Below are positions 55,144 to 63,678 of a DNA stretch of 64,000 bases, piece after piece. The DNA is taken from NCBI RefSeq assembly GCF_018336815.1, contig NZ_CP050497.1, positions 1,860,001-1,924,000 of the forward strand, written 5' to 3'. The position numbers were made by a program, and so were the translations under genes. Source of the DNA: Treponema vincentii. Its GTDB lineage: Bacteria; Spirochaetota; Spirochaetia; Treponematales; Treponemataceae. The notes under the pieces were generated by a model. That model saw only the letters and a list, made by a program, of their open reading frames with translations, ran no database searches and had not been told where the DNA came from. How positions within the stretch are numbered: the stretch's first letter is position 1; every line of letters begins with the position of its first letter.

Positions 55144-56763
55144 ATGGAAGCAATCAACTACGCCCCCAGCGGGCAAAATATGATACTCACCGAAGATGCG
55201 CAAATAGTGCCGGGGGTTTCAGGCAATGCATGTTATTTACCGGCGGGAACCGGCACAATCGCCCTTGCAGGCGACAGAAACGAGCTATCGGTTTCCCTTT
55301 GGCGGCAATGGGACGGCGTTGTAGAATCCGATGCTCCGCGCGGGGTTTTTCGCTTTAAGAATATACGCATCTTTTTTGATAATGTAACCGACTTTTTAAC
55401 CGTCGTCATAAACGGTTTTAAGGCAATTACGGATATTAAGGACAAGCAAGAACAGGTGCATTGGTGTTTTACTTTTGTAAAGAATGATCGGTTTATCATC
55501 TACAAGGATGCGAAAGAGGTGTATAGCCTACCGGCAGGAGACAAGCCGGTAGATATGGCTGACGGTTTTAGCATCGGCGGGGGGCGCACACATGCGACAT
55601 TCGATGAGGTGCGGGTATATAAAACCGTACTTACACAAGGGGAGATAAACGGGCTCTTTTATTTAGTCAGTAAGGGTACGCAGGTAAAACAGCTTGAAAA
55701 AATTGTACAATCGGCTACCCCAAAATACTTAGGCGTTACCGAAACGGTACCGGCAACCCGAACGGCGGTAATCACGAAGGGAGAGAGACTCGGCGCGCAG
55801 GATGCAAACGCAGGCGACTGGGTATTGATGGCTAAAACGATAGGCGGATGGAAGTGCGGGGTGTGTTACCGCTGGACGGGTACACTGTGGATAAACTTAG
55901 AGCCGGAAAAAGACTATGCAGAGCAGTATCACGCCTGCTTACTTCACATCTGCGAAATCGATGAGCTGATGAAGGAAACCGGACACTTCGGAGCGTTGTT
56001 TGCGAAACAAATCATCGCGCAAGAAGCGTTTATAAAAAAACTTGCCGCCGACCAAGCATTCTTAAAAGAACTTATCGTACAAAAGCTACGCATTGACAGT
56101 GATAAAAATTCAAATCAAGATTTTGAAGCATGGTTTGACAAAGATAACGGATTGAAGATTCAAAACAATGGTCAGGTAGTCTTTAGTGTTAATCCGAGCG
56201 GTTTCGCCTTTATGAAGAATGCAAAATTTGAAGGGGAAATCGACTGTCAGGGATTTAAGGTAATCAATACCGGTAATACTACCCCAACGCTTCAATTCTC
56301 GTGGAGTAAGGGGAATGATGCGTTTACTTGCGCAAGCAAGATTAGCGCTGTTGGGAGTTATGACTCCTTAGGCGGCTACTATTATAACAATCCTTTGATA
56401 ACAAAACATTATGGAGACGGTATCTATGGAGGCAATACAATACGAAGTATAATTTATAAACGTTGGCGCGCGCTTACATTGACCACCGGTTTTGTTTGTA
56501 TAAAATTAGAATTACTAAATAATAATGGTTCATTAATAGGAATTATAAGTGTTTCACGACATGATAATGGATATATATATTCAAGTTTTACAGAAAATGA
56601 CGAATCTAAAGGATGGGCTGCTTACAGAGCATCGCAATATGATTTCGCTTTTTATACCTATAATCCTTCACAGACCGTAATGATCCCTAATATCTCTTTC
56701 GGGAAAGCGTCAACCCCTAATATCTTATACAGAGATGAGAACGGATTTGTAAAGATAAGTTAA
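55144..56763 (+). CDS. Tail fibre/receptor-binding protein with LamG-like domain
   Basis: The 539 residues begin with a concanavalin/LamG-like domain (NELSVSLWRQWDGV, VHWCFTFVKNDRFIIYKDAK, FSIGGGRTHATFDEVRVYKT). A helical segment (FLKELIVQKLRIDSDKNSNQ) and a beta-rich Gly/Tyr end follow. It is the last + strand structural gene and overlaps the opposite-strand lipoprotein by 4 nt. A role in host recognition is inferred. Confidence 0.65.
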   Translation: MEAINYAPSGQNMILTEDAQIVPGVSGNACYLPAGTGTIALAGDRNELSVSLWRQWDGVVESDAPRGVFRFKNIRIFFDNVTDFLTVVINGFKAITDIKDKQEQVHWCFTFVKNDRFIIYKDAKEVYSLPAGDKPVDMADGFSIGGGRTHATFDEVRVYKTVLTQGEINGLFYLVSKGTQVKQLEKIVQSATPKYLGVTETVPATRTAVITKGERLGAQDANAGDWVLMAKTIGGWKCGVCYRWTGTLWINLEPEKDYAEQYHACLLHICEIDELMKETGHFGALFAKQIIAQEAFIKKLAADQAFLKELIVQKLRIDSDKNSNQDFEAWFDKDNGLKIQNNGQVVFSVNPSGFAFMKNAKFEGEIDCQGFKVINTGNTTPTLQFSWSKGNDAFTCASKISAVGSYDSLGGYYYNNPLITKHYGDGIYGGNTIRSIIYKRWRALTLTTGFVCIKLELLNNNGSLIGIISVSRHDNGYIYSSFTENDESKGWAAYRASQYDFAFYTYNPSQTVMIPNISFGKASTPNILYRDENGFVKIS

Positions 56764-57440
56764 AACTCTTTTAGATATTCAATAAATATCGGCGGTAATG
56801 GCAATGTAAAACTGTCATCACTTGCATTAAATACTATCGTTATATTAGATTGGGCAGTCCGCAATCGATTGATGATATCAAGAGATAATTCTGCTTTCAT
56901 TATCGTATCTTTTACATCTAAATATTCAAACTCAGGATCGTTATTTTTTTGATATGTTATATCAACGTTATGAATGTCTACTACATCATTATTAGAAAAT
57001 TTTATTTGAATAGGCTGTGTTTCTGATGCTTTTATAACAATAGGTGTCATAAGTTTAGACTTTAAAACAAACGTTATTTTTTTTGTGTCATATTTAACCG
57101 TTTTTTGCAATTCAAGGTATACTTTAAAATACATACCTTTAGAACTTTTTGTGCCCTTCGTAGCAGGACGTCCATCAAACGTAACCGTATTAACGATATC
57201 TTCTTTTCGAGGAACATCAGCTAATAGTTCTTCGTCCGTTCTGGTATCTTTTAATTCACCGGTAAGTTTTACCGTCCAATGCGCATCTTTTGACGTATAT
57301 TCCTTTTCTTGAACTAATGATTTATTTTCTTTTGCCATCGGATCTTCTGTCATAGTATTTCCTTTCGCATTCGTTGCATAATTGCAGGATACCATAGACA
57401 GCATAAATAACGCAAATAAAAGATAGACAGATTTTTTCAT
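56760..57440 (-). CDS. Lipoprotein A (accessory, related to lipoprotein B)
   Basis: ATG 57440 is chosen because it gives a lipoprotein signal MKKSVYLLFALFMLSMVSC with Cys 19. The mature 208 residues include NKSLVQEKEY and a C-terminal domain ending SFTLPLPPIFIEYLKEF, both mirrored in the lipoprotein at 59276. It lies opposite to the tail genes and after the TerB_N gene. The protein is predicted to sit in a cell envelope; role unknown, possibly lysogenic conversion. Confidence 0.75.
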   Translation of the reverse strand: MKKSVYLLFALFMLSMVSCNYATNAKGNTMTEDPMAKENKSLVQEKEYTSKDAHWTVKLTGELKDTRTDEELLADVPRKEDIVNTVTFDGRPATKGTKSSKGMYFKVYLELQKTVKYDTKKITFVLKSKLMTPIVIKASETQPIQIKFSNNDVVDIHNVDITYQKNNDPEFEYLDVKDTIMKAELSLDIINRLRTAQSNITIVFNASDDSFTLPLPPIFIEYLKEF

Positions 57441-57512
57441 AGGGAACTCCTTACAAAAAATATAAGCAAATAAAAGAAACAACTCAAATGCTGCGATTAT
57501 GCTTGAAGCATC

Positions 57513-59015
57513 TTACTGCACTCCTGCTTTTTTTGCAAGTCTTGCTAATCTTAGGTCAAAATCTCCCATTCTGACATGAGGCATTCTTGAAACTTTTGCA
57601 GCTCTTTGGCAGATAAAATAAGCCTCATTATACATTTTTATTCTTTCCAGCAAAATAAGAGGGCGCTCCCAATAAGACGATCCTGTTGGTGTAGTTTTTC
57701 CTAAAATTTTTAAGTAAAATATAATAGCTTTTGTAATATCGTCTTTTTCAATGTTTCTAGCTTTCTCATACGTCGATACATATTTTCGAAAATTTTTATC
57801 AAAATCAATCATTCCTTCTGTTTCATTTATATTTTCAACATTTATCTTATATTCCATAAAAGCCGCAGTTATATGATTTTCTTGAAAATATACATTTTTC
57901 TTAGTTTTTTTAGGTTCGGGTTTTATATCTCCGCGTTTACGCAATTCAGCAAGTTCTAATTTTGTCAGTTCGTGAGCAGCTTCTAAAAAAACATTCATAT
58001 CACGTTTTAATTTAAAACAGTCTTGAACACGAGTAACCGGTACTTTTACATCAAGTGAATAGTTTACAAATATTGACTCATCAATTACAGGCAGTTTTTT
58101 TATCTCTTGAGGTGTAATATAGTCTTTCAGATTCACAGTATTTTTTCCTGTTTTCTGTGTTAAAAGAGTATCAAGATTTTTTAAAAATATATCGTAGTAT
58201 TTTGTTATATAATTTCTATTAGAAAATTCAAAAGTTTGTGCCATTCGCACTATATCTTTTGCTGTCAGCGGAATATCAAAACTATAAGCCCCAAGTAAAT
58301 ATAAATTATGTGAAAAGATATATTCATATTCATTTTCCTGATTTAATGAATAGAAAAAATCCCTCGCATACTCACCTTTTCCTTTTAATATGCTGGCAAG
58401 AATTATTGCATTGCCGGTATACGTTTGAAAAGACTTTTGTTTGTGTACTTTTCTTAATTTTAAAACAACAGTCATTGCTCTGTCAAAATCACCATCTAAC
58501 AAATGACGCTCAAGACCATAGTACAAGAGAAAAACATAGCCTATATCTATATCAGCTATATATGGATTAGTTAAGAAATTTAAATACTTCCATCTTTGTT
58601 CAGGGGTTAATTCTGAATGAGGCATAATTGTATCTCTTGAACCGTAACAGGGGAAATAATGCAATTTTTCAACACTTTCCGCATTTTTTGGTTTGTTTAT
58701 GGGAAGTTTTGTAAAAATAACACTAGGTTCTATTGTTTCGTTATATTCATAAACAAAAGTAATACAGCCAACATTATATTCATACACCTTTTTAGGTTTT
58801 TGCGTATAATTTTTATATTTACCGTCTCCTATCCAGATAAGACCTTCTAAATCAGGATGGATTCTTTTAATAACTTCTTGACTGATCTCTGCCGATGGTA
58901 TTTCCCTTTGTTTTATTTCATCAAAAACATTTTCGTGTTGCTTTTGAGATACATTTTCTTGGGGAACTAAATTACTATTAGCTTTCTTTCGCTTAAATAA
59001 ATCAAAAACAGACAT
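57513..59015 (-). CDS. TerB_N-domain protein
   Basis: The 500 residues have a charged N-terminus and a TerB_N-like domain at about residues 55-260: LEGLIWIGDGKYKNY, SELTPEQRWKYLNFLTNPYI, ADIDIGYVFLLYYGLERHLL. The C-terminal 230 residues are helical and basic. TerB_N proteins occur near tellurite-resistance and defence-type loci, but the function is unknown. ATG 59015 follows AAAGGGATATGT; a longer frame upstream lacks a ribosome site. Confidence 0.75.
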   Translation of the reverse strand: MSVFDLFKRKKANSNLVPQENVSQKQHENVFDEIKQREIPSAEISQEVIKRIHPDLEGLIWIGDGKYKNYTQKPKKVYEYNVGCITFVYEYNETIEPSVIFTKLPINKPKNAESVEKLHYFPCYGSRDTIMPHSELTPEQRWKYLNFLTNPYIADIDIGYVFLLYYGLERHLLDGDFDRAMTVVLKLRKVHKQKSFQTYTGNAIILASILKGKGEYARDFFYSLNQENEYEYIFSHNLYLLGAYSFDIPLTAKDIVRMAQTFEFSNRNYITKYYDIFLKNLDTLLTQKTGKNTVNLKDYITPQEIKKLPVIDESIFVNYSLDVKVPVTRVQDCFKLKRDMNVFLEAAHELTKLELAELRKRGDIKPEPKKTKKNVYFQENHITAAFMEYKINVENINETEGMIDFDKNFRKYVSTYEKARNIEKDDITKAIIFYLKILGKTTPTGSSYWERPLILLERIKMYNEAYFICQRAAKVSRMPHVRMGDFDLRLARLAKKAGVQ

Positions 59016-59092
59016 ACATATCCCTTTCTTTTTAAATCGGCTAAAACAAACAAAAGCTAAATAATTAAACATTTTTGTTTACCTGATTCGGC

Positions 59093-59275: not shown

Positions 59276-60133
59276 TTATAGTTCCCGTAAATATTCAAAA
59301 AATAATGGAGGCAATGTAAAATCAAGCGTACCTCCATCAAAATTTATCCGTACTGTGGTATCTGCGTTTTGTTTACGAAGCCTATTTACTTCTTTCAGTG
59401 GTATTTTAGCAGTCAGAGTTGTCCTATGTAATCCTTTGTTTGTTATCTCAAAATTCGGCAAACAATCAAAACCCATAATCGAACTATCTGCTAGTTTTAT
59501 TTGTATATCCTTTCCTAGGCTTGGGGTCTTATACTCATTGCTTGTTATAGCCGCAGATATAAAAAAGTTAATTTCACCTGATTGTTCTATGTTTTTTAGT
59601 ATTATAAACATGGGAAACATGTTATTTTCTACTTTTAATGATAGAAAAGCAATATTGTTTGAAATTTTAGAAGTAAAATTATCTTTACTGCCGGACATAA
59701 GCAAAACCCATGCATCCTTTTCTATGTGTTTTTTTTCAGAAACCATACTTTTATTTTCATTCGCAAAAGGGTCTTGTTTCTTAAAACTTACATAAATATT
59801 GATGTCTTTCGTTACCGTAATAGAAACTGTGCGCTTAGTAGTATCCGAAATTGGGATTGACCAAGAATCTACTTCATAATTTTCATTAGGGACTGCGGTA
59901 AATACAACAGTTTTACCATTTTCAACGGTGATCGGCGATGTTGTATAAATCTTATCCATTCCATTTATTTTTGCAGTAATACTTCCGCCATCTCCAGAAA
60001 CAGAAAAATTGACATTATATTGTTCTGTCTTTGTATCTTGTGAGAGATTTTGTTGCATATTATTATTTGGCGTGTTACACGCGGTAAACAGCGTCGCCAA
60101 CACCAGCAATAACAAAACAGCAATCTTTTTCAT
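59276..60133 (-). CDS. Lipoprotein B with InlB-like repeat
   Basis: The 285 residues start MKKIAVLLLLVLATLFTAC, a lipoprotein signal with Cys 19. Residues 40-120 form one bacterial beta-repeat (GDGGSITAKINGMDKIYTTS, VVFTAVPNENYEVDSWSI), a type common in treponemal surface lipoproteins. The C-terminal part matches lipoprotein A: NKSMVSEKKH and the end DFTLPPLFFEYLREL. It has its own promoter (60157-60186) and an AAAGGAG site. Confidence 0.75.
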   Translation of the reverse strand: MKKIAVLLLLVLATLFTACNTPNNNMQQNLSQDTKTEQYNVNFSVSGDGGSITAKINGMDKIYTTSPITVENGKTVVFTAVPNENYEVDSWSIPISDTTKRTVSITVTKDINIYVSFKKQDPFANENKSMVSEKKHIEKDAWVLLMSGSKDNFTSKISNNIAFLSLKVENNMFPMFIILKNIEQSGEINFFISAAITSNEYKTPSLGKDIQIKLADSSIMGFDCLPNFEITNKGLHRTTLTAKIPLKEVNRLRKQNADTTVRINFDGGTLDFTLPPLFFEYLREL

Positions 60134-60268: not shown

Positions 60269-61135
60269 TCAGTGTAGATAGCCGATTCTGCGTTTAATAT
60301 CCACGGCTCTTGATGAATATAATCCATTTGTAATGTTTTTTTCCATCTCTTCTTTTTTTTGTTTTTCTTCCTGTGTCATATCCGTATCGAGCTTACCTTT
60401 TAATGTTCCAATAAAAAGTTCATATTCACGTATTGTGTTTACTACTGTTAGTCGTTGTATCTTTTCTATTTCCAAACAACATTCGTTAACAACATAGGTC
60501 ATATATTTGAATGCGTCCATAAAAGAAAAATGTCCATCGCCGTCAATATCAATTGCCATTTTAATTGCAACAAAGAAAGCAAAAAGCATTATATTCGCTT
60601 CCCAACTATTACCATAACTACCGATAGGAATACTTATGCTTTTTGTCAGGTTTGTACCCCCCATAATAACTATATTGGGTGTAAAAAAACGCCCCTTTAG
60701 TTTTGTATTCGGATAATTAAAGATACCGGCATAACACGACCCTAACAAGATAAAAACTTCTTTTGCAGAACAAACAGATTTTATCGTGTTTATGAATATG
60801 TGAGGTTTTATAGGGACTTTTGCGGCAAGACCATCAATATTTCCATGTCCAAATACATTTAAAACTATGAAATCCTTTTTTATACAAGATAAAATAGTCT
60901 TAAAATCTTCAGGATTAAAGATTTTAATCTTTTTTTTGTTAGATGGTTTAATTATTTTCTCTATATTAGAATGGTCGCCGTCAATGATAAGCGTAATATT
61001 TTCAAAAGGAACATTCTTTAATAGGAGTATGTTTACACCAAAATTTATATCATGTAAATGCTTATCGTCAGGTTCCGTTTCGCTTGTAAGCATAAAAATC
61101 CATTGTGTATTTGTCTTATCAATTCTGTAATACAT
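60269..61135 (-). CDS. Caspase-like (clan CD, C13-type) protease with EF-hand-like loop
   Basis: In 288 residues the catalytic dyad is visible: FIVLNVFGHGNIDGL with His 97 and VFILLGSCYAGIFN with Cys 134, the HG...SCYAG pattern of clan CD peptidases. Residues 196-207 read DIDGDGHFSFMD, a canonical calcium-binding EF-hand loop. A charged coiled coil ends the protein. No signal peptide is seen. It overlaps a 108-aa gene and is driven from a late-type promoter. ATG 61135 is preferred; TTG 61141 is possible. Substrate and role unknown. Confidence 0.7.
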   Translation of the reverse strand: MYYRIDKTNTQWIFMLTSETEPDDKHLHDINFGVNILLLKNVPFENITLIIDGDHSNIEKIIKPSNKKKIKIFNPEDFKTILSCIKKDFIVLNVFGHGNIDGLAAKVPIKPHIFINTIKSVCSAKEVFILLGSCYAGIFNYPNTKLKGRFFTPNIVIMGGTNLTKSISIPIGSYGNSWEANIMLFAFFVAIKMAIDIDGDGHFSFMDAFKYMTYVVNECCLEIEKIQRLTVVNTIREYELFIGTLKGKLDTDMTQEEKQKKEEMEKNITNGLYSSRAVDIKRRIGYLH

Positions 61136-61445
61136 TTTCAACCATTTGCGTTAATTCCATTTTAAACATTTCACTATCGCTATCTTTGTATATCGGAATA
61201 TCAGAAAATTTTATAATATATTTATATGTAATGTTTGCACAATCTGGACAAACACTAATAACAGCTCCGCTTTCAGAAAGTAATAAATTTTGTCCGTTCG
61301 ATAAGATATATTTTGCAGAAGGGGTATCAGAGCACTCTATCGCATATAAGTTATAATTTCCGTAATTTATTAGATCGCGAGTAACCCCTGATAATTGTGT
61401 CAATGTCGATGACAGGATTTTTATCGTTTTTAAGTCCTGATACAT
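61119..61445 (-). CDS. Small partner protein of the caspase-like protease, 108 aa
   Basis: The protein (MYQDLKTIKILSSTLTQLSG, TPSAKYILSNGQNLLLSESG) contains CPDC in the middle and an acidic helical end. Its last 17-23 bases overlap the protease gene, which implies coupled translation and a stable ratio. It might be an inhibitor, sensor or substrate. No family recognised. The ribosome site is GAGGAG. Confidence 0.6.
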   Translation of the reverse strand: MYQDLKTIKILSSTLTQLSGVTRDLINYGNYNLYAIECSDTPSAKYILSNGQNLLLSESGAVISVCPDCANITYKYIIKFSDIPIYKDSDSEMFKMELTQMVENVLQN

Positions 61446-61504
61446 TATTTACTCCTCACCAAAAGTATAAGCGAAAGCGGGTGGGTTTGCAAGTTCACGC
61501 AAAA

Positions 61505-61534
61505 ATAATATCACATAGAAAGAGCGTAACGCAA
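61505..61534 (-). promoter_or_regulatory. Late-type promoter site 5, caspase-like operon
   Basis: Minus strand: TTGCGTTACGCTC starts at 61534. An 18-bp spacer after TTGCGT leads to TATTAT (61510-61505). The partner gene starts 59 bp later. Confidence 0.65.
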
Positions 61535-61614
61535 AAGAGTATTTAAAGAATCTCCACCTTGTCGCCGAAAATGGCCATAAGCAGAAATCTTATCAGTTGA
61601 GGAGGTATCTTTTT

Positions 61615-63015
61615 ATGAAAAGCATAGGACAGCCGTGGTGTATCTTTCCGCGAAATAAAGCCAATGGGATTCTCTATTACCAATTAAAAGATAAAGAAAC
61701 CGGTAAATATATGAGTGCAAAAAGTACCGGCACGAGGGATAGAAATGAAGCGACACGTTTTGCCAGTCGGTGCTGGGCAGAATATGACCGTACCGGTACA
61801 GTACGGTATAATGTCGGCAATAACATTACAGCAACGGATGAAGGAGCTCATGTTATCGACGCGGACATAAAGGCGTATACTCAAACTGCCATTGATACGA
61901 TTGTGCAAGGCGTACAGGGTGCTGTTTGTCATAACAACTCCGTACAGCCGTACTCTGTATCAGCCGCAGAATACGAAGATGCTCCGGAAGAGATTAAGCC
62001 GATTTTAGACCAGCTATCAACGCTCACCTTTTATGACTACATTCTTCTTTACTGGAATTATAAGGAAAGTCCTTTCATTAAGGGCAAGATACGGACCGGC
62101 GCAACTCCGCCAAATCCTGAGCGGTTTTACCATCATACAACCTGCATCAAAAAATATGAGCAGTATTTTCCTTCTTGCTTGCTTACCGAAATAACCGGTA
62201 CGAAAATTGATACAATGCTCGGCGCAATCAAAGGAGCAGGTAAGCTGAAAGAAAATACCATGCACAAATACTACTCCATCTGTATTCAAGCCCTTCGTTT
62301 TGCGTATCGTAATAACCTCATTGCGCGGGATATTTCACAGCAGATAACGAGAGAATCAAAAGCTACGCGAAAAAAAGCGAAGAAAGAGGCGGAAAAAGCT
62401 ACTTTTACAAAAGAGGAAATCCGGCAACTTTTCAATAGCGAGCATAATCCGTTCGGCTCTCAAATAAATTGGCTTATCAATGAAGTACTGTTTAAAACCG
62501 GTTGCCGCATTGGAGAAATACAAGCCCTTCAGATGCAAGATTTTATCAAAAATTCAGACGGATATGCGCTCAAGGTTGACAAGAACTATTGCAGAACCGG
62601 CAAGCGGCTTAAATGTACGAAAACAGAACGCAGCGACATCGTTCCTCTTTCCGCCGACCTTGCAGAAAAATTGCTCGCACACCTTGAAAGCAACCCATAT
62701 CAAGATGATCCGGAGGCGTTCATATTTAGCTCCCCTCGAGATGCGCATAAACCGTTCTGCTATGAAAGTTTTAACGATGATTTTAATAGAACAATGAGAC
62801 GATTAGGAATGAAGCGCACGAATTTGACGCTCCACAGCTATAGGCATACGTTTGCTACCTTTTTACGCATGGCCGGCTTTTCAGAAGAAGAGCTTAAGTT
62901 TTTAACTCGGCACGACTGCATAGCAGAGGTGCGGCACTATGCCGATCACTATACGCCTGAAATGGAACAACTCAAATACAAGGCAGTCGGCGCACTCGAT
63001 AAAATTATAGAGTAA
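61615..63015 (+). CDS. int: Tyrosine-type integrase
   Basis: The 466 residues have an N-terminal arm-binding part, a SAM-like core-binding domain (FYHHTTCIKKYEQYFPSC, NTMHKYYSICIQALRFAYRN) and the catalytic domain with TGCRIGEIQALQMQDF, LHSYRHTFATFLRMAGFS and the final HDCIAEVRHYADHY giving R...H-xx-R...H and Tyr. It should integrate and excise the prophage. ATG 61615 follows GAGGAGGTATCTTTTT. It marks the right end of the element; no matching att core was found. Confidence 0.93.
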   Translation: MKSIGQPWCIFPRNKANGILYYQLKDKETGKYMSAKSTGTRDRNEATRFASRCWAEYDRTGTVRYNVGNNITATDEGAHVIDADIKAYTQTAIDTIVQGVQGAVCHNNSVQPYSVSAAEYEDAPEEIKPILDQLSTLTFYDYILLYWNYKESPFIKGKIRTGATPPNPERFYHHTTCIKKYEQYFPSCLLTEITGTKIDTMLGAIKGAGKLKENTMHKYYSICIQALRFAYRNNLIARDISQQITRESKATRKKAKKEAEKATFTKEEIRQLFNSEHNPFGSQINWLINEVLFKTGCRIGEIQALQMQDFIKNSDGYALKVDKNYCRTGKRLKCTKTERSDIVPLSADLAEKLLAHLESNPYQDDPEAFIFSSPRDAHKPFCYESFNDDFNRTMRRLGMKRTNLTLHSYRHTFATFLRMAGFSEEELKFLTRHDCIAEVRHYADHYTPEMEQLKYKAVGALDKIIE

Positions 63016-63171: not shown

Positions 63172-63200
63172 TTGACAAGAATGCGTTCATAGCTTAATAT
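63172..63200 (+). promoter_or_regulatory. Strong sigma-70 promoter without a gene
   Basis: TTGACA (63172-63177), a 17-bp spacer and TAATAT (63195-63200). No coding sequence follows for several hundred bases. Confidence 0.55.
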
Positions 63201-63206
63201 AAAAAT

Positions 63207-63317
63207 AGTTAGAGCTACACAGTTTTTTTGACAGATAAAGTGTAAGATAACTAATTAAAAATATGTACTAAAAACGCCTCAAAACGAGCGTTTCACCCTA
63301 TCTTTTAGCGTTTTTTT
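63207..63317 (+). ncRNA. Candidate small RNA after the orphan promoter
   Basis: From about 63207 an imperfect hairpin (GTTAGAGCTACAC with GTGTAAGATAAC), a second hairpin (AAACGCCTC with GAGCGTTT) and a T7 run at 63311-63317 could form a ~110-nt transcript. Nothing more supports it. Confidence 0.3.
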
Positions 63318-63343
63318 CCTGATACAGAGTTATTGTTTACCTA

Positions 63344-63587: not shown

Positions 63588-63678
63588 TCACAGCTCACAG
63601 CTCACAGCTCACAGCTCACAGCTCACAGCTCACAGCTCACAGCTCACAGCTCACAGCTCACAGCTCACAGCTCACAGC
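63588..63678. repeat. Thirteen perfect copies of a 7-bp repeat
   Basis: TCACAGC is repeated 13 times without error over 91 bp. A 7-bp unit is prone to slippage. No open frame crosses it. Confidence 0.95.

Follow-up and report, generated by a model that had tools for sequence, protein, structure and literature searches.

What role does a cysteine protease gene play when it overlaps a small partner gene and lies antisense to the structural genes of a prophage? This question is raised by a 64,000 bp stretch of the 2.71 Mb Treponema vincentii genome (contig NZ_CP050497.1, positions 1,860,001 to 1,924,000), here called the window. The terminase, portal, head, and tape-measure genes of the prophage are on the + strand, and at its right end a block of minus-strand genes separates a tyrosine integrase from the last gene on the tail side. 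This block is closed by the pair under study. The first gene of the pair encodes a partner of 108 aa (61119..61445, - strand) and the second a legumain-like (clan CD, C13-like) cysteine protease of 288 aa (60269..61135, - strand), both identified as open reading frames (ORFs). The protease is read from an ATG at 61135, with an alternative TTG start at 61141 giving 290 aa, and its start shares 17 bp with the partner ORF. The two genes form a true module. At just under an even chance, they are read as an anti-phage protease cassette borne by mobile elements, which acts by exclusion or abortive infection and is restrained by the partner.

The two-gene module and its distribution

The initial annotation, made from the sequence of the window, described the protease as coupled by overlap to an unknown protein, and the partner does indeed match no known family. 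It also suggested looking for the pair in other prophages, where the pair recurs. A small gene homologous to the partner is immediately 5' of the protease gene wherever the locus extends far enough upstream, a few loci being cut at a contig edge. The two genes either overlap or are separated by no more than about 50 bp. A larger apparent gap in a melainabacterial copy (L011) results from an in-frame stop in the start region of the protease, which represents either decay of the gene or an assembly error. Pairing is seen in Spirochaetes, Melainabacteria, and the beta- and gammaproteobacteria. Pairwise distances between partners co-vary with those between proteases (Mantel r 0.90, p = 1e-4, 22 loci). 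In five close locus pairs the ratio of nonsynonymous to synonymous substitution rates (dN/dS) is 0.04–0.10 for the protease and 0.03–0.18 for the partner, indicating purifying selection on both. Same-order pairing, co-divergence, and low dN/dS in both genes therefore identify the pair as a two-gene module, previously unnamed.

Relatives are 26–35% identical to the window protease and are found in other genomes of the Treponema family, including Treponema metagenome-assembled genomes (MAGs), in a Melainabacteria MAG, in Luteibacter, Pandoraea, Duganella, and Burkholderia, in viral contigs, and in E. coli. The pair is rare, being present in 4 of 195 genomes of the family, in 3 of 393 in the phylum (one distant homologue among them), in 1 of 300 in the order of a Burkholderia carrier, and in 13 plus 11 of 5426 E. 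coli genomes. Searches of phage and plasmid collections by tblastn, and of the phage collection by DNA, gave no matches to the pair. Partner-profile matches in two spirochaete genomes, one inside a lytic transglycosylase-like protein and one inside a large protein, look like chance and were set aside. In E. coli F11 (L060 8325-9295) the protease gene is truncated beside an IS1 element and the partner gene is intact; a partner without a functional protease is therefore tolerated.

Conserved residues and predicted folds

Alignment of the protease included 25 family members and one distant homologue of 417 aa, 26 sequences in all. The His97/Cys134 dyad proposed in the initial annotation fits the numbering from the ATG at 61135. 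Both residues are invariant in the 25 relatives and retained in the distant homologue (26 of 26). The His97 codon is at 60845..60847 (- strand), within a GHG motif, and the Cys134 codon at 60734..60736 (- strand), within GSCYAG, where relatives have GQC. The EF-hand-type loop recognised at the same time, DIDGDGHFSFMD (residues 196–207; 60515..60550, - strand), is equally conserved, with D196, D198, G199, D200, and D207 unchanged in 25 of 25. Since they are invariant across the 25 family members, neither the dyad nor the loop is a product of chance.

In a model of the window protease generated with AlphaFold2 (AF2; predicted local distance difference test, pLDDT, 79) His97 and Cys134 are at the ends of the adjacent core strands 91–98 and 128–133. 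The loop lies between predicted helices 184–195 and 207–247, a helix-loop-helix arrangement with the DxDxDG...D pattern. The distant homologue keeps the first and last loop Asp and has lost the EF loop itself. A role for calcium at this loop is plausible by analogy, because Ca2+ is important to other families of clan CD, including metacaspases, gingipains, and separase (PMC4357240).

An AF2 model was also made of an orthologous partner-protease read-through fusion (pLDDT 85). Foldseek matches of the models in the PDB are to GPI8, legumain, and caspases, with E values down to 2e-6. A caspase-hemoglobinase alpha/beta/alpha core of clan CD, the fold on which the initial annotation depended, is predicted from the models and these matches. 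Compared with PDB sequences, the family profile matched legumains (E about 1e-3), with the N-terminal RH..D motif and the HG...C region both aligned. Pfam C13 (PF01650) gave weak matches in 6 of 14 members, with a best E value of 5e-4 and none for the window protein; weak matches to C25 were also present among family members, and the C14 profile (PF00656) matched none of the 14. The earlier description of the protein as caspase-like holds for the clan CD type and the His/Cys dyad, but not for a caspase proper, the nearest solved relatives being legumain/asparaginyl endopeptidases and GPI8. The S1 pocket of legumain, which receives Asn/Asp, is formed in part by Arg44 and His45 of helix 1 (PMC4357240). 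The family residues aligned to this pair are Arg in 24 of 25, with Lys in the window protein, and His in 25 of 25. Because the family keeps this helix-1 R/K-H pair, as in legumain, cleavage after Asp or Asn is predicted.

The partner has no convincing match in Pfam or among PDB sequences and no hydrophobic stretch of transmembrane strength. Its structure can be viewed in the fusion model, a modelling device in which the natural stops between the two genes are read as Ser. There the partner has a compact fold, with pLDDT block means of 76–95 over residues 1–80 and the element order beta-alpha-beta-beta-beta-beta-beta. The most conserved sites in an alignment of 22 partners include an Asn (21 of 22) and a Gly (22 of 22) right after the helix. 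In the window these belong to the N-x-G at Asn27 (codon 61365..61367, - strand), which follows the predicted first helix. Legumain-inhibiting cystatins have an essential Asn directly after a helix and before the next strand (PMC5727476). The modelled resemblance of the partner to cystatins is a lead, not a claim of membership.

Genomic contexts and possible roles

The pair in Luteibacter adjoins Gabija (GajA E 3e-197, GajB E 1e-126), and in Burkholderia aenigmatica the other strand carries, 85 bp downstream of the pair, a gene with a match to the DRT8 reverse transcriptase. On a phage-like contig (L055 7287-17641) a C5 methyltransferase, an HSP90/MORC-type ATPase, a Z1 protein, an AspBHI/Mrr-type nuclease, and a 275 aa unknown form a cluster closed by the distant 417 aa protease homologue, where the partner differs. 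This cluster may represent an MZA-like system that includes a protease arm. In three different E. coli lambdoid prophages the pair is just before hokD, in the early-right region and on the lytic strand. In satellite-like elements it is opposite in strand to the capsid genes and near a HEPN gene, in viral contigs it is inserted between capsid genes on the opposite strand, and at L034 it abuts an integrase, as in the window. One copy is within a polysaccharide gene cluster (L057). The family thus recurs in cargo loci and beside defence genes (Gabija, DRT8, the restriction-modification/MZA-like cluster, and prophage and satellite cargo), as associations at individual loci. Variable loci of prophages and satellites are reservoirs of antiviral systems (PMC9122126). 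Host killing, maturation, or exclusion of other phages had been suggested in the initial annotation and, of these three, the genomic contexts favour exclusion.

Two diverged copies of a ClpP-MCP capsid fusion gene flank the pair in L030 2352-7965 and L059 6962-12521, which are satellite-like or defective prophage elements. The copies share 58% protein identity in L030 and 73% DNA identity in L059, and one copy is without its N-terminus yet open. This duplication is a possible record of cargo entry into the capsid gene.

As an anti-phage cassette, the pair would encode a cytoplasmic legumain-like endopeptidase with specificity for Asp or Asn suggested by its first helix, and the loop directly after its catalytic core would probably bind Ca2+ and support the active conformation. 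The partner, translated first from the shared transcript, would bind the protease and keep it inactive, plausibly through a substrate-like Asn loop. An infection cue would then free or alter the partner, and the freed protease would cut host or phage proteins, stopping the infection. The observations that count towards this reading are the predicted C13-like fold with its dyad, the same-order pairing, the co-divergence, the purifying selection, the cargo and defence-island contexts, and the lack of a transmembrane-like segment. From these we infer the remainder: the partner as inhibitor or sensor, the trigger, the target or substrate, the P1 specificity, the use of Ca2+, and the outcome in defence. 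A narrower assignment, to a new class of immune system that would pair a bacterial legumain-type protease with a cystatin-like inhibitor acting on it in trans and bearing a substrate-mimicking Asn loop, as part of phage defence, is quite doubtful.

Several points weigh against a defence role or the structural basis for it. The fusion model yields no interface confidence, the Foldseek TM-scores are modest at 0.3–0.55, and the AF2 input for the window protein was 14 sequences. The defence neighbours are an association only, at few loci, and neither the chromosomal loci L013, L014, and L015 nor the polysaccharide-cluster locus has a recognised defence neighbour among the genes scanned or read. 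No PADLOC model matches the protease, the member of the pair scanned there, and comparison of the protease with PHROGs and NCBIfam gave nothing convincing.

Some of the same features would suit a toxin-antitoxin or addiction module, in which the free protease is toxic, the partner is a labile antitoxin, and the main gain is stabilisation of the prophage or island, defence being secondary or absent. The operon has two genes with the small gene first and start codons overlapping or near, it is distributed on prophages and satellite-like elements, and its two proteins co-diverge. Addiction modules are common in the plasmid collection, however, where the pair is absent, and co-location with defence systems fits defence at least equally, making this explanation somewhat unlikely. 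The presence of one dedicated small protein with each protease could also reflect a reversed proenzyme, the partner being a dedicated substrate or pro-effector activated by cleavage, in the manner of nuclease and gasdermin systems that a protease switches on. Bacterial immunity has known examples of such partners, and nuclease-protease pairs have been described (PMC12799240). Yet the partner, at under 110 aa, has no motif recognised as catalytic or membrane-inserting, and the sites that are best conserved in it look structural; a pro-effector is unlikely.

A further rival, in line with the late action proposed in the initial annotation, is a protease of the phage life cycle, which would serve its own phage towards the end of lytic growth in maturation, lysis timing, or host takeover. 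Carriage within prophages is in keeping with this, as is the lytic-strand position before hokD in E. coli. A candidate σ70-like promoter, TTGCAA-N17-TATACT, is just upstream of the pair (61464..61492, - strand) as a consensus match only, and the initial annotation placed the pair on a late switch under the promoter type of the lysis genes. There are 20 promoter-like matches in the region against 23.2 expected from shuffles, only one other similar TTGCA...TATACT site lies just 5' of a gene, that of a neighbouring lipoprotein, and no lysis genes were identified in the window. The late switch is unsupported because the pair runs antisense to the structural operon in the interval from the tail end to the integrase, because the promoter-like sites are at chance level, and because the pair is also found outside recognisable prophages. 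The link to lysis promoters was rejected. The lack of a match in the phage collection, the opposite-strand insertions between capsid genes in viral contigs, and the copies beside defence genes or in the polysaccharide gene cluster also argue against a life-cycle role, which is very unlikely.

Other features of the window surround the pair. The divergent tyrosine integrase adjoining it (61597..63015, + strand; Pfam Phage_integrase E 8e-19) marks the prophage end and puts the pair in a cargo position. A search around the integrase for att sites gave no convincing direct repeat. Just past it is a tandem AGCTCACAGCTCAC repeat (63590-63678), and a piece of about 160 bp near it (63173-63334) has a second copy at 492.5 kb of the genome. 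Within the minus-strand block, a TerB_N-domain protein (57513-59072; Pfam E 4.6e-6) has a partial PADLOC match to Shango SngA (E 6e-12) and is a possible second defence gene in this cargo. Two lipoprotein-like genes (59276-60133 and 56760-57482, - strand) have similar C-terminal endings, IFIEYLKEF and LFFEYLREL, and one of them carries an InlB-type B-repeat domain. These are probably lysogenic-conversion surface proteins.

Comparison with known systems

Bacterial immunity is known to use caspase-type proteases as effectors, and legumain biology is known mainly from eukaryotic vacuoles and lysosomes. The family described here shares with legumain/asparaginyl endopeptidases and GPI8 (C13) the caspase-type alpha/beta/alpha core, the HG...C dyad, and the helix-1 RH (KH in the window), and these are its best profile and fold matches. 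It differs in being sub-threshold in Pfam, in having no secretion signal, and in having the EF-hand loop and long C-terminal helices in place of the legumain C-domain. It also differs in consisting of bacterial mobile-element genes with a separate partner gene. The clan CD dyad and fold class are likewise shared with caspases and metacaspases (C14), caspases being among the fold matches, and with bacterial caspase-like effectors such as the Craspase TPR-CHAT. However, the family lacks a C14 Pfam match, no CHAT/TPR, CRISPR, or nucleotide-sensing partner is seen, and the partner is of no known family. The partner is small, as are legumain-inhibiting cystatins (PMC5727476), and its predicted beta-alpha-beta order in the fusion model, with the helix followed at once by an Asn in the alignment, is compatible with theirs. 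In sequence, however, it matches neither cystatins nor any solved structure.

The defence hotspots of prophages and satellites, including the P2/P4 loci and PARIS (PMC9122126), are similar in that conserved phage genes there enclose small cargo cassettes on a strand of their own, exchangeable between elements. They differ in that the main text of that work names no caspase or protease, and the protease of this pair has no PADLOC model. Literature searches found no paper on this protease-partner pair, nor any account of a legumain-type protease that forms a free-standing two-gene cassette with a small partner of its own. Within the databases and papers searched, the parts are already known (clan CD protease, EF-hand, and cargo defence cassette), whereas their combination with an obligate small partner is undescribed. 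The pair is small, is spread from Spirochaetes to E. coli prophages, and lends itself to direct cloning into a laboratory strain, which makes the proposed defence and inhibitor roles quick to test. If true, they would extend legumain biology to conflicts between mobile elements.
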